64,000 bases of DNA. Source: Loktanella sp. Alg231-35. GTDB lineage: Bacteria; Pseudomonadota; Alphaproteobacteria; Rhodobacterales; Rhodobacteraceae. The stretch is taken from the NCBI RefSeq assembly GCF_900143545.1, contig NZ_FREV01000010.1:1-64000 (forward strand), read 5' to 3'. The notes beneath the pieces are model-generated. The model was not told where the DNA came from. It saw nothing but the letters and a program-made list of their open reading frames with translations, and ran no database searches. The position numbers were made by a program, and so were the translations under genes. Shown here one piece after another: positions 28,138-32,720 of this stretch (position 1 is the first letter of the stretch; each line of letters begins with the position of its first letter).

Positions 28138-29927
28138 TGTTCGTCTGGAACGCCGATGATCTAGATGCGGATCAGGTCGAGGCGATCAAGCAGCCGGGAA
28201 GCGTATTTCTCTCAGCCTGCCCAGGAAGCGGCAAAACGCGGACGCTTACCTACAAGATCGCGTTGGAACTGTCTCTGCTGACCACTGACAAACAGCGGGT
28301 GGTCGCGATCACGTATACTCACCGAGCGGCGGATGAAATTCGGGAACGGATTGAGCAACTGGGCGTTGATACAGGACAACTATGGATTGGAACGATCCAT
28401 TCTTTCTGCCTCGAATGGATCTTGCGTCCTTATGCGATCTATCACCCTGCCTTGAAGAACGGCTTCGGAGTGATAAACGCGCACGATAGCGAGCGAGCGC
28501 ATGAGGCACTGTGCCTTCAGCACGGAGGCGGTCTTCGAAGTTTTGACTGCGGCCATTATTTTACTCCGACGGGCTATGTCATTAGCTGTGCTGATTGGAA
28601 ACGGCCGAAAGTTGATGCGTTGCTCCAGCGGTATTGGCAAGAGTTGCGTGCCAATCGGCAAATTGATTTTGAAATGATCTTGGCCTACGCGCATCAATTG
28701 ATCTCCGACGTACCTTCGATCAGCATACTGTTGGGCTCGATCTTCACGATTGTGCTTGTCGACGAATTTCAAGACACCAAGGAAATACAGTACGGGATTC
28801 TTGGCGCAATCCTCAAGGCATCCAAAGGACAGGCAAGGGCGTTTATCGTCGGCGATCCAAACCAGGCAATTTATGGTTCACTCGGTGGTTATGCGATCAC
28901 GTCTGCCGAACTTTCCAGACTAAGCGGCGTAGCGTTCAAAGAGCTGAACCTGTCGAAAAACTACCGGTCGGCCGATCGGATCGTTAGCTTTTTTGAGAAT
29001 TTCAATCAGCTCGCCTCCAATATCACCGCAGAAGGCGAACTCAAGGATTTTGCCAGCGTCATTTCTTATGACTGTTCGACCAATCGCAATGCCCTCGAAG
29101 CCGAAATCGTCCGGCTTATCCGTTACAATATCGAGATGGTCGGAATTCCGCCGAGCGAGGTTTGTATCGTGGGACCGCAGTGGCCGCTCCTTGCGAGCAT
29201 GACGCGTCACCTCGTTACGGCGCTCCCAGAATACAGTTTCTCTGGCCCTGGCATGGTGCCGTTCGCGCGCGACATCGACAATTTTTGGTACAAACTCGCG
29301 CGTATTATTCTGACAGAAGCTTCGCCACAACTATACATCCGGCGAAATCGTTGGGCTGGGGAGGTCATCGCAGCTTTCGACCTGGCAGGCGTCAACACCG
29401 ATGCCATCACGCGGAAATCGCTGTTGCGCGTTTCGAACGGCATCACCTCCAACGTGACCGACGGTCTCGCAAATCTGGTCGAATGTTTCAACGCAATGCT
29501 TCCAGCGCTCGGCATCGATTATACGACCTATCCGATGCTAACTGAACACTATGATGCGTTCGTCGAAAGCTCCCAGAAGCGGATTGATCGGCTGACCGCA
29601 GACGGAGTCGACGCTATCGCCGATATCGCAACGTTCCGAAAAGTGTTCGACCTGAAATCCGGGATCACTGTGTCAACAATCCATGGAGTCAAAGGCGCTG
29701 AGTTTGAAGCTGTGATTGCCTTCGGCCTGCTAGAAGGCATGGTTCCTCACTTCAACGAAAGCGACAAGGTCGCTGCCGCAAGTAAACTCCTGTACGTCAT
29801 CGGGTCTCGTGCAAAAAAGAACCTTCACCTCATATCTGAAACAGGCCGGAGACGACGCGGAAGCGAGCTTTACATGCCGACAGATACCCTACTCGCCTGC
29901 AGCTTTACTTACGATCTGGTGACTTAA
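28134..29927 (+). CDS. gajB: Gabija-type GajB: UvrD-like helicase
   Basis: A 597-residue superfamily 1 helicase. Motifs in order: CPGSGKT (I, near residue 28), TYTHRAADEI (Ia), VDEFQDT (II, near 209), VGDPNQAIYG (III), LSKNYRSADR (IV), STIHGVKGAEF (V, near 517) and LYVIGSRAKKNL (VI). GajB senses DNA ends and joins GajA in a supramolecular complex that stops phage replication. The ATGA overlap with gajA shows joint translation. Class 2 OLD nucleases are defined by exactly this UvrD-type neighbour. Confidence 0.85.
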   Translation: MMFVWNADDLDADQVEAIKQPGSVFLSACPGSGKTRTLTYKIALELSLLTTDKQRVVAITYTHRAADEIRERIEQLGVDTGQLWIGTIHSFCLEWILRPYAIYHPALKNGFGVINAHDSERAHEALCLQHGGGLRSFDCGHYFTPTGYVISCADWKRPKVDALLQRYWQELRANRQIDFEMILAYAHQLISDVPSISILLGSIFTIVLVDEFQDTKEIQYGILGAILKASKGQARAFIVGDPNQAIYGSLGGYAITSAELSRLSGVAFKELNLSKNYRSADRIVSFFENFNQLASNITAEGELKDFASVISYDCSTNRNALEAEIVRLIRYNIEMVGIPPSEVCIVGPQWPLLASMTRHLVTALPEYSFSGPGMVPFARDIDNFWYKLARIILTEASPQLYIRRNRWAGEVIAAFDLAGVNTDAITRKSLLRVSNGITSNVTDGLANLVECFNAMLPALGIDYTTYPMLTEHYDAFVESSQKRIDRLTADGVDAIADIATFRKVFDLKSGITVSTIHGVKGAEFEAVIAFGLLEGMVPHFNESDKVAAASKLLYVIGSRAKKNLHLISETGRRRRGSELYMPTDTLLACSFTYDLVT

Positions 29928-30101
29928 AATACCTTGCTCATCAAGCTTCTTCTCCTGAGTTTGAACAATGGTGCTAACCAAATTGTCCGAAGTATTTAGT
30001 ATATGTGCGCGCTGCCCTCGGCGATATCCGCGCGGCCTGCGGCGACGACGATGTTCGGGCAGGTGCCGGTAGAACTGCTCATCACGACCATCTTTGGAGT
30101 A

Positions 30102-30132
30102 GGCCTAGCTGGCCCGAAGCTGCATATTTGGG
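30102..30132 (+). repeat. Left terminal inverted repeat
   Basis: 31 bases identical to the reverse complement of 31687-31717. It begins GGCCTAGCTGGCCCG and ends with GCATATTTGGG. The outer flanks are unrelated, which fixes the boundary. Confidence 0.9.
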
Positions 30133-30167
30133 TTTTTTGGAGAACACGGCGTGAACAAAACCCAACG

Positions 30168-30452
30168 CTATTCTACAAGATCAAAGTCATCATCTTCAAT
30201 GATTTCAAGTTTCAGAATGGTTGCTTCTGTCTCCACTAAGAACCGATCAAGGCTACCCAGCTCCGCCTCAGCGGCTTGACGATTAAACCGCTTAGACTTT
30301 CGGGTAATAAACTGCGCCCTAACAAATTGGCCTTCCTTGCTGGCTTCTCCAGATACGATCATCGCCTTCAGTTCGGCCTCTCTGGTCTTGAGCGCCTTGA
30401 CCTGCTCCCTAATTTTCTGAATCTCATCGACGGGGCGCAAGTTGGACGACAT
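30168..30452 (-). CDS. Small coiled-coil protein of unknown function
   Basis: A 94-residue charged protein, mostly helical: residues 8-30 (DEIQKIREQVKALKTREAEL) and 60-90 look like coiled coils around a basic, Arg/Lys-rich middle (FITRKSKRFNRQ). A good RBS (AAAGGGAG) precedes ATG 30452. It is divergent from the resolvase inside the inverted-repeat unit. Its size and charge would suit a small DNA-binding or accessory protein, but nothing identifies it. Confidence 0.55.
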   Translation of the reverse strand: MSSNLRPVDEIQKIREQVKALKTREAELKAMIVSGEASKEGQFVRAQFITRKSKRFNRQAAEAELGSLDRFLVETEATILKLEIIEDDDFDLVE

Positions 30453-30524
30453 GGAATTTTCTCCCTTTCCATGTCATCAAATCATAACCATGGGCGCTGT
30501 CACAATGTGGTCATTTAGGATATA

Positions 30525-30634
30525 CCCAAAACGACATGGCGCATGAACACTGAGACGTACCGTTTTTGTGTTCACTTTGGGCCTATTTATCGATAATGAA
30601 CACATTATGTCGAAGGCACACCCAAAATGAACAC
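30525..30634. promoter_or_regulatory. Probable res site and operator of the resolvase
   Basis: The region repeats the half-site CCCAAAAnnTGAACAC: GTGTTCACTTTGGG at 30568-30581 faces CCCAAAATGAACAC at 30621-30634 (13 of 14 matches), and another CCCAAAA...TGAACAC pair spans 30525-30550. A TGAACAC also lies at 30597-30603. Serine resolvases bind such paired sites upstream of their own genes and there repress transcription and recombine DNA. The last half-site overlaps the resolvase start codon. Confidence 0.65.
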
Positions 30635-31184
30635 TTATCAGGCCAAAATCGGATATGCGCGCACCTCAACCACGGATCAGAACCTCGATGCGCAGATTGC
30701 TGCCTTGAAAACAGCCGGGTGCGGCATGGTCCGCACCGAGCAAAAGAGCGGTGCCAGTCTTGAGGGGCGGCCCGAACTCAGGACGATCCTCGACTTCATC
30801 CACTCAGGTGAGACGCTGGTTGTCACGCGTATTGATCGATTGGCGCGCAGCCTCAGTGACCTACAGACTATCGTCGTCCAGCTGAATTCCAAGGGTGCAC
30901 ATCTGGCTGCAACCGAGCAGCCGGTGGACACATCAAACGCCACGGGAAAGGCTTTCTTCGACATGCTCGGTGTCTTTGCCGAGTTCGAGACAAACCTGCG
31001 GCGTGAGCGGCAGGCCGAGGGCATTCTCGCTGCCAAGCAACGTGGCGTGTATCGCGGCCGCCTCCCGAAAATCGATATGGCCATCATTCAGGCGAAGCTG
31101 TCAGAGGGCATGTCGCCAACGGAAATTGCACGCGACATGGGAATATCGCGGGGCACGGTCTATAAAGCAAAGGCCTTGATGTGA
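30627..31184 (+). CDS. Serine resolvase/invertase
   Basis: A 185-residue serine recombinase. The catalytic Ser14 lies in GYARTSTTDQN, followed by VVTRIDRLARSLSDL near residue 67, with active-site Arg residues, a long E helix, and a C-terminal helix-turn-helix (SPTEIARDMGISRGTVYKAK). The length is typical for Tn3-type resolvases. ATG 30627 overlaps a res half-site, which allows autoregulation. Its last codons overlap the GTG start of the next gene. Confidence 0.92.
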   Translation: MNTYQAKIGYARTSTTDQNLDAQIAALKTAGCGMVRTEQKSGASLEGRPELRTILDFIHSGETLVVTRIDRLARSLSDLQTIVVQLNSKGAHLAATEQPVDTSNATGKAFFDMLGVFAEFETNLRRERQAEGILAAKQRGVYRGRLPKIDMAIIQAKLSEGMSPTEIARDMGISRGTVYKAKALM

Positions 31185-31660
31185 AAAAGAACAAGAAAAA
31201 GCAGCGGTCGCCAACCGCCAAACCGCCCGCCAAAACAAACACAAAAGTACCGCCGCCGCGCAACCTTACGCCCCCGCTCTGTGAGAAATTGCGCCGCGAC
31301 ATGATGCAAGCGTGTCTCAAGGTAGCGGAGACACACGGGTTGACGGTTGAAGGCGGGGAGTTGAGCGACATCGATCTGCGTCACGGCTTCGACATCAGCT
31401 TCCGCGTCGGTATTCCGATGCCCGACGGTGCGATCTATTCGCCGGACAAAGCCATGTTCGAAGTCCTCGCTCCACATTTTGGCCTTGAGCCATCTGACTA
31501 TGGACGGACCTTCAAGTCGCGGGGAGACCTCTACCGGATCGTGGCGATCAACCCCAACAGACCAAAGTACCCGATTAGCACTGAGCGTGTCTCCGATGGG
31601 CGCGGGTTCAAGATGCCGGCCGAAAACGTCGTGATGTATCTACAGAAGTCAGGAGCCTGA
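31181..31660 (+). CDS. Hypothetical protein linked to the resolvase
   Basis: A 159-residue protein starting at GTG 31181, overlapping the resolvase stop by 4 bases, so translation is coupled. The first 30 residues are Lys/Pro-rich and disordered. The rest is an alpha/beta domain with LSDIDLRHGFDISFRV, a long helix around LRRDMMQACLKVAETHG and KYPISTERVSDGRGFKMPAE near the C-terminus. The function is unknown. Coupling to the resolvase suggests a role in mobility, or a passenger using its promoter. Confidence 0.6.
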   Translation: MKKNKKKQRSPTAKPPAKTNTKVPPPRNLTPPLCEKLRRDMMQACLKVAETHGLTVEGGELSDIDLRHGFDISFRVGIPMPDGAIYSPDKAMFEVLAPHFGLEPSDYGRTFKSRGDLYRIVAINPNRPKYPISTERVSDGRGFKMPAENVVMYLQKSGA

Positions 31661-31686
31661 AAGTTCATGAATTGTTCCCGAAGAAG

Positions 31687-31717
31687 CCCAAATATGCAGC
31701 TTCGGGCCAGCTAGGCC
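31687..31717 (-). repeat. Right terminal inverted repeat
   Basis: Exact 31-base inverse of 30102-30132, lying 26 bases after the stop of the 159-residue gene, as expected for a transposon end close to its last gene. Confidence 0.9.
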
Positions 31718-32720
31718 AGTTTAGAATGTGCCCCGGCTACAGTTCCAATTCGCATAATAGTAGTTATGTTAAATAAGTCAGCATTACTGACCTAAACTCT
31801 CTGAATCACTCTTATGTTAATTATTAATAAGTGTAGAGCATGATCCCCAATGGGTTCATCGCGCTTTGTAGTATAATTTTTGGTTGGTCGCGCAATATGA
31901 TTGGATATCCATTGGCTCAATTCATCTGTTTTTCTACTTACGAACCAAAGGAGAGTTCCAAGATTAACTCCTGAAGATCACCGAGCAGGACTTGGTCGGC
32001 ATCGTGCGTCAGAAGAATTACGTCCCTTAGAATGTCTGGTTTTGACCTTTCTGGTTCCAACAGTTTTGTCGTCGATAAACCCACACTGATGTGAATTGCT
32101 GATGTCCATTGTTGGTATTGGACTTCTTGAGGTGGTCGATAGCGGGCAGAAACATTGCGAGTGTCACCGCATCGGAAGTGATATCACATTACCTGCGAGC
32201 GGGTGGTCTCAGAGTAAATCGCTATGTACTCGGATACGAGCAGAGGTGGCGATCACGTCTGCCGCAACGGCAGTCCGAACAGCAGTTTCATTGTCAAGAA
32301 GGTCTGAGATTCAGCGTCGCAGGAACTCTTTTAAGGACCACGTTTGCTACTGGGAGGTGGCACTCAATCCATCTCTGGATCAAACCAGATCGACAGCGAC
32401 CCACGCTGCTTCAAGCTGTTATTGTAAGACGACCGGTTTGTGATCTTGCGCATCATTGCAGGTCAATCGTTCATGCCTTCCAGCTATCCTGCTGGCGTCG
32501 CAACATGAATTCCCTCGACCGATTTGTGCAACAATGCCAAACCGCCACTACAACATCCCCTCAGTGGTTGGACGGCAGCCTTGAACGGATCCGGATCACG
32601 GCATGAGGTTTGGGTTTGGGAATACTCCACCTTGCATTCGATCGAGTGCCTCTGTTGGCAGGCTGGGATCTCTTCATCATCTCAATGCTTTTGCGTCTGC
32701 TTGCCCGGTCTCAACTCCGG
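31718..32720. other. Kilobase without a convincing gene; possible decayed coding remnant on the minus strand
   Basis: The first 200 bases are A+T-rich. Plus-strand frames here are long but have poor, biased translations. On the minus strand a frame from about 32190 down to a TAA at 31938-31940 reads like a protein end (RDVILLTHDADQVLLGDL and LILELSFGS), without a start. I could not identify it. The stretch is probably the scar of past insertions between the defence patch and the catabolic island. Confidence 0.35.

Follow-up and report, generated by a model that had tools for sequence, protein, structure and literature searches.

A probable TIME-RES-like, transposase-less derivative of a roseobacterial Tn3-family transposon in Loktanella sp. 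Alg231-35

Mobile insertion cassettes consist of the ends of a transposable element around genes other than a transposase; those described derive from insertion sequences, and we know of none with a resolvase-res module. The element analysed here is closer to TIME-RES from Pseudomonas (Szuplewska et al., 2014; PMC4133298), a unit of 1186 bp in which, by the published description, 40-bp ends enclose tnpR and res and no transposase. The passages of that paper on TIME-RES report its capture by transposition with a 5-bp duplication, record one database copy without flanking direct repeats, and use the term portable recombination system for it. Mobile insertion cassettes are mentioned there and in PMC3281130, which together with PMC13367494 gives, in the sections concerned, the wider setting of such elements. 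A search of the open-access literature found no paper on the present element or its parent.

The element occupies positions 30102–31717 of the 64,000-nucleotide stretch of Loktanella sp. Alg231-35 DNA that we analysed (the window). It is about 1.6 kb long and is bounded by exact 31-bp inverted repeats at 30102–30132 (plus strand) and 31687–31717 (minus strand), the outer parts of two 45-bp terminal inverted repeats (30102–30146, plus; 31673–31717, minus) that are 91% identical. At even base frequencies, about 7e-11 such repeat pairs within 5 kb are expected by chance in 64 kb. In the 3.9-Mb genome the 31-mer occurs at these two places only, with up to three mismatches allowed. Between the ends lie, in order, ORF94 (minus strand), a res site, tnpR (plus) and ORF159 (plus), and no match to a transposase was found there. 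A sequence-only reading of the window had described exact repeats around a serine resolvase and a res-like site with no transposase, and the sequence and the profile matches bear this out. A hairpin or a chance repeat is ruled out by the chance expectation together with the exact 31-mer in many other genomes, and the 31-mer bounds elements in other Rhodobacterales instead of recurring as a conserved hairpin, once per genome and unlinked to insertion. No RNA family was found at 29900–32000, and a promoter scan of 30000–31800 returned two candidates against 1.1 expected.

Scanning bacterial and archaeal genomes for the exact 31-mer returned 30 stretches from 13 genomes, counted by accession prefix. 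Twelve of the 13 are labelled alphaproteobacterial, mostly Rhodobacterales; the other is a metagenome-assembled genome (MAG) labelled Halobacteroidaceae, whose contig L006 has an exact end and a fragment of ORF159 and is likely a misbinned roseobacterial contig. A match to the transposase of stretch L010 (Halocynthiibacter), whole or partial, adjoins the end in 22 of the 30 stretches, the remaining eight being cut by the end of the contig or stretch. Complete parents, with both ends and all genes, are present in L010, L027, L031, L034, L035, L075 and L013/L029, with a frame break in ORF159 of L035 and a possible one in tnpA of L013/L029. They measure 4.8–5.8 kb and have the order end, tnpA (970 aa), variable cargo, res, tnpR, ORF159, end. 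The L010 TnpA matches PF01526 (3.9e-132) as well as DUF4158, scores 794 bits with NF033527 (cut-off 500), and matches the Tn4430 transposase in the PDB at 2.4e-70. Most parents hold a pRiA4b ORF-3-like gene (PF07929) in the cargo slot; other genes are found in L027 and L096, and in L038 only about 120 bp precede tnpR at this place. In this Tn3 subgroup the place between tnpA and res holds changing cargo and is worth mining. The genome search for the end that the sequence-only reading had proposed has thus turned up both full-length parents and other cargo.

The end, with up to three mismatches, was found in 5 of the 394 genomes of a family sample, our genome included, so these elements are sparse in the family. 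Similar ends on sphingomonad plasmids are 78% identical over 45 bp, at an E-value of 0.7 only; one of this kind, on Sphingobium cloacae NZ_AP017657, is 90 bp away from the gene of a transposase that is 63% identical. The exact end was absent from viral contigs. The Rhodobacteraceae MAG CATOSB has exact ends in 14 stretches (L007, L009, L011, L012, L015, L016, L019, L021, L023, L024, L027, L030, L032 and L033), some of which may overlap or repeat, and 13 of them have a tnpA match. This abundance suggests a recent burst of the parent.

In relatives, the ends that bound the window copy adjoin a Tn3-type transposase gene, the product of which presumably recognises them. The window copy also has a resolvase and a three-subsite res, its subsites assigned by conservation. 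Neither a tnpA between the ends nor a PF01526 match anywhere in the genome was found, and a search of the genome with the L010 TnpA was empty. The element is therefore a derivative of the Tn3 family and not an autonomous member. The same PF01526 search was positive in genomes G104, G065 and G046 (in G046 with a fragment only) and in 2 of 14 control genomes. In G046, which is of the same genus, an end of the parents' type and the start of tnpA lie at a contig end, so a helper may exist within the genus. Mobilisation in trans by a compatible TnpA is plausible.

The left end resembles the tnpA side of the parents. Its match to the tnpA-side ends of L010, L026, L031, L034 and L035 reaches 30159–30160, past the 45 bp common to tnpR-side ends; for the tnpA-side ends of L013 and L027 it covers the 45 bp only. 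In L010, tnpA starts 88 bp in from the end, and the window copy accordingly retains no part of tnpA itself. The longest matches to relatives in BLAST restart at 30509–30512, the edge of res site I, and others restart later, up to 30569. Three res subsites are conserved in an alignment of 17 res regions. Site I (30510–30535, plus), the presumed crossover palindrome, is placed by this alignment and by the limits of the BLAST matches to parents, and its consensus is GTCATnATGGGTATACCCATnATGAC. Site II (30568–30603, plus) contains the inverted GTGTTCA/TGAACAC, and the site III region (30604–30634, plus) overlaps the start of tnpR. The names of these putative subsites follow the order of sites I, II and III known for Tn3.

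Both boundaries of the element are fixed by uninserted relatives, at 30101/30102 and 31717/31718, the right one by two short matches. To the left lies a fragment of an IS30-type transposase gene (30021–30101, minus) that is 80–90% identical to three same-genus genomes, in matches that begin at 30021 or before and end at 30101. This flank was matched in 5 of 56 genomes of a genus search, our own included; the match stops at 30101 in three of the four others, and in the fourth it covers 33 bp further in. Beyond the equivalent of 30101 the sequence continues in uninserted relatives, in genome G027 as an intact IS30-family transposase gene (L114:1467-2477; NF033563 transpos_IS30 at 6.3e-84). To the right, 31718–31769 (plus) is 81–83% identical to the same-genus genomes G017 and G040, in matches of 41–52 bp (E 2e-4 and 7e-4) that start exactly at 31718 and are preceded by other DNA there. 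The first 17 bp, identical in G017 and G040, may be the end of an IS30-type element; beyond them, 31749–31774 is what we take to be a dif-like (Xer-type) site. In G017 the start of an IS30-type transposase fragment, which is 51% identical over 94 residues to that of G027, lies 48 nt ahead of the junction; no IS30-type gene was seen at the right junction in G040. The two flanks are oriented as in one IS30-type element from which about 420 nt are absent (372 nt of the gene plus 48 nt). They thus appear to derive from a single IS30-type copy, as judged from different genomes at the left and right junctions. The prediction of a Tn3-derived, non-autonomous element bounded exactly at its repeats holds, since parents with the same end carry tnpA and relatives part from the window copy precisely at both junctions.

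The comparison with empty sites confirmed the boundaries on both sides. The window copy has no 5-bp target duplication, the flanking sequences being GAGTA and AGTTT. Among ten elements with visible flanks, the duplication is present in L010, L027 and L013/L029 and absent from L031, L034, L075, L037, L097, L071 and the window copy. It accompanies three of the six tnpA-bearing elements with both flanks visible and none of the four without tnpA, a difference that is not significant (Fisher p = 0.2). Next to the right junction, about 1 kb (31718–32720) has no convincing gene and short matches within the genus, including five copies of 95% identity in G029; it is probably the remains of insertion sequences. 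A dif-like site with a variable spacer closely follows an insertion-sequence-like end in the window and also in five genomes of the genus (at about L116:2044, L117 reverse 1963, L118, L119 and L114:2555), as if some insertion sequences settle beside dif-like sites.

We consider it very probable that the element derives from a roseobacterial Tn3-family transposon and is non-autonomous and TIME-RES-like, with the following working model of its moves, resolution and adjacent deletion. The window copy has lost all of tnpA, retains about 59 bp of a tnpA-side end and has ORF94 between this end and res. If a compatible Tn3 transposase entered the cell, it would use the two 45-bp ends to move the element replicatively, and TnpR would resolve the cointegrate at res, as expected for the family. 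Between moves, the res-tnpR module could resolve dimers of its replicon, with ORF159, from its linkage and selection, as a putative accessory of this module. Insertion would have been into an IS30-type insertion sequence, followed by loss of about 0.4 kb beside the element, most simply by intramolecular replicative transposition, which would leave an adjacent deletion. Because the orientation of the flanks fits one IS30-type element minus about 420 nt, a single insertion with adjacent deletion is favoured, and fusion of two insertions comes second. With no target duplication, the transposition of this very copy is unrecorded; the absence fits either adjacent deletion or fusion.

Fusion would make the element a chimera of two separately inserted elements that TnpR, acting at res, or homologous recombination had joined, with the end and ORF94 from one and res-tnpR-ORF159 from the other. 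Such an origin would explain the absent target duplication. It is also favoured by the start of the longest parental homology at the edge of site I, by the GC contrast between the left arm (47.6%) and tnpR (57.5%), and by the variation of the cargo between tnpA and res among parents. However, the flanks fit a single IS30-type element, in one orientation and short of about 0.4 kb, which one insertion with adjacent deletion explains more simply, and the genome has no second copy of the ends. We regard a chimera as rather unlikely.

The gene tnpR (30627–31184, plus) encodes a serine resolvase of 185 aa (PF00239 at 9.7e-38; HTH_7 at 6.6e-6) that resembles the Gin, Sin, gamma-delta and Tn3 resolvases of known structure. 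ORF159 (31181–31660, plus) has a GTG start, overlaps tnpR by 4 nt and adjoins it in the parents. Compared with three relatives, dN/dS is 0.05–0.07 for tnpR and 0.05–0.11 for ORF159. These values point to purifying selection on both genes, over a period that includes history shared with tnpA-bearing relatives and is not specifically that after the loss of tnpA. Two unknown passenger genes had been proposed; ORF94 stands as cargo, and ORF159 is, by its place in the related sequences, a gene of the parents' resolvase module and not a passenger.

In a tnpR-ORF159 tree of 16 elements, three copies lack tnpA: the window copy, L037 3886-5210 on plasmid p2 of Paracoccus albus, and L097 5179-6539 on pSC52_5 of strain SC52. 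The window copy groups with the tnpA-bearing L034, L029 and L020, and well-supported branches force three changes. We read these as three losses of tnpA, on a tree whose count gives no direction and among elements in which exchange at res could move tnpR. In another genome of the genus (G018), a fourth pair of ends without a transposase, 1538 bp apart (L071 3082-4619), surrounds genes for a MarR-type regulator and a 4HBT-like thioesterase; tnpA and tnpR are both missing, and the unit is a passenger-carrying non-autonomous element. The SC52 element borders on a fragment of a further resolvase gene, with AbiEii and abortive-infection genes nearby (L097 4879-6539), and in L028 (2409-2837) an end lies directly beside a resolvase gene; possibly, this reflects a taste for res regions. 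In L076 (6095-6136, genome G040) two end-like sequences overlap head to head and form a 42-bp palindrome, which may be a minimal remnant or else a terminator.

The element could also be a plasmid-type multimer-resolution cassette, selected for resolution, whose dead transposon ends are kept by history. The purifying selection on tnpR and ORF159 suits this explanation, as do the similar tnpA-less cassettes on the P. albus and SC52 plasmids and the lack of a detectable Tn3 transposase in the genome. Yet the ends match each other exactly over 31 bp and are the same as in full-length elements, where long neutral decay would have eroded them, and the selection estimates also cover history in common with tnpA-bearing relatives. 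We regard this explanation as unlikely.

ORF159 relatives occur in 44 plasmid records, and we read the surroundings of ten. In six of these (L036, L037, L094, L095, L096 and L097) tnpR lies beside the relative, although in L095 and L096 it is broken or lacks annotation. The other four, from Cereibacter, Geoalkalibacter and Sinorhizobium LM21 (31–46% identity) and from Sulfitobacter dubius (81.5%), have no annotated resolvase next to them, which argues against an obligatory link between ORF159 and tnpR. In a class sample, ORF159 was found in 2 of 367 genomes, our own included. It has no match in Pfam at a threshold of 1, in NCBIfam at 0.1 or in PADLOC at 0.01. The best of five models of its fold has a mean pLDDT of 77.7 (range 42.0–77.7). 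With Foldseek, this model had no match in the PDB at 0.001 and 12 among viral proteins (best 8.1e-8), the named ones uncharacterised. A further structure comparison gave Z scores of at most 5.7 over approximately residues 87–159, with residues 1–86 barely covered; the tied rows include SH3/KOW-like barrels and a chain of a VapXD complex, and we draw no function from them. As a tentative proposal, ORF159 could regularly accompany TnpR within one alphaproteobacterial Tn3 subgroup, as an undescribed accessory of resolution that binds nucleic acid or protein, and res-tnpR-ORF159 could be a self-sufficient resolution cassette that has repeatedly been freed from its transposase and is maintained by selection on replicons. 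ORF159, unstudied and travelling with a resolvase, is the most interesting loose end of this locus.

ORF94 (30168–30452, minus; GGGAG-type ribosome site) is a cargo gene at the place of tnpA and encodes a small protein with a long N-terminal helix (AlphaFold2 mean pLDDT 70.4, pTM 0.33). At E up to 0.01 it has matches in 17 of the 387 other genomes, all of them weak (18–31 bits); a seven-row alignment of these relatives has eight invariant positions. ORF94 had no match in plasmids at 0.01, one in phages at E 0.1, and none confirmed among 21 candidate stretches of viral contigs, and no further copy inside such an element was found in plasmids, phages, viral contigs, genomes or related elements. 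In four neighbourhoods read by eye from their open reading frames, the relatives are solitary among ordinary-looking chromosomal genes, and ORF94 appears distantly to resemble solitary chromosomal coiled-coil proteins. Identification as TraC was rejected, with just 20 residues matching PF07820 at 0.004, under the cut-off. ORF94 and ORF159 had been suggested to form an undescribed functional pair (toxin-antitoxin or defence) carried by the element; both are small with no assigned function, the element adjoins Gabija, and ORF159 has an insignificant HicB-like PHROG match (0.12), but the pair is highly improbable, since the two genes are on different strands and are separated by res and tnpR, ORF159 accompanies tnpR also in elements that have no ORF94, the ORF94 relatives with surroundings read stand alone, and PADLOC gave ORF94 only 0.0041 to one candidate model, with its other family matches weak and no family match for ORF159.

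The genes upstream of the element are indeed Gabija (GajA model 1028 bits, GajB model 804 bits), as first read, and are separated from it by the IS30-type fragment instead of directly preceding it. Gabija as cargo was rejected: the genes lie outside both ends, and no third end turned up anywhere in the window when as many as 11 mismatches were allowed. There is no evidence here that this element moves Gabija.

The features of the TIME-RES type, as published, are present in the window copy: Tn3-type ends without a transposase, and tnpR with res between them. TIME-RES has 40-bp ends with 8 mismatches and a 309-aa resolvase as in Tn5563, and its description reports no further genes, whereas the window copy has 45-bp ends, a 185-aa resolvase, ORF159 and ORF94, and its mobility is presumed. 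TIMEs, TIME-COMPs and IS101, as characterised in the relevant sections of PMC4133298 and PMC13367494, likewise have Tn3 ends without a transposase, some with a suspected res; TIMEs are about 260 bp long with no genes, TIME-COMPs are bounded by two TIMEs, and TIME-COMP1 holds a resolvase-like gene and another open reading frame. The Rhodobacterales Tn3-family elements have ends, res, tnpR and ORF159 in common with the window copy, the nearest being L029 (90% DNA identity over tnpR-ORF159), but carry tnpA and mostly pRiA4b ORF-3-like or other cargo where the window copy has ORF94. By published description, the window element is of the TIME-RES kind in a new lineage; its ends and its resolvase are different, and it has two additional genes. 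It takes the known range of Tn3 derivatives that carry a resolvase and no transposase from Pseudomonas to marine Rhodobacterales, where they occupy three separate places in the tree.
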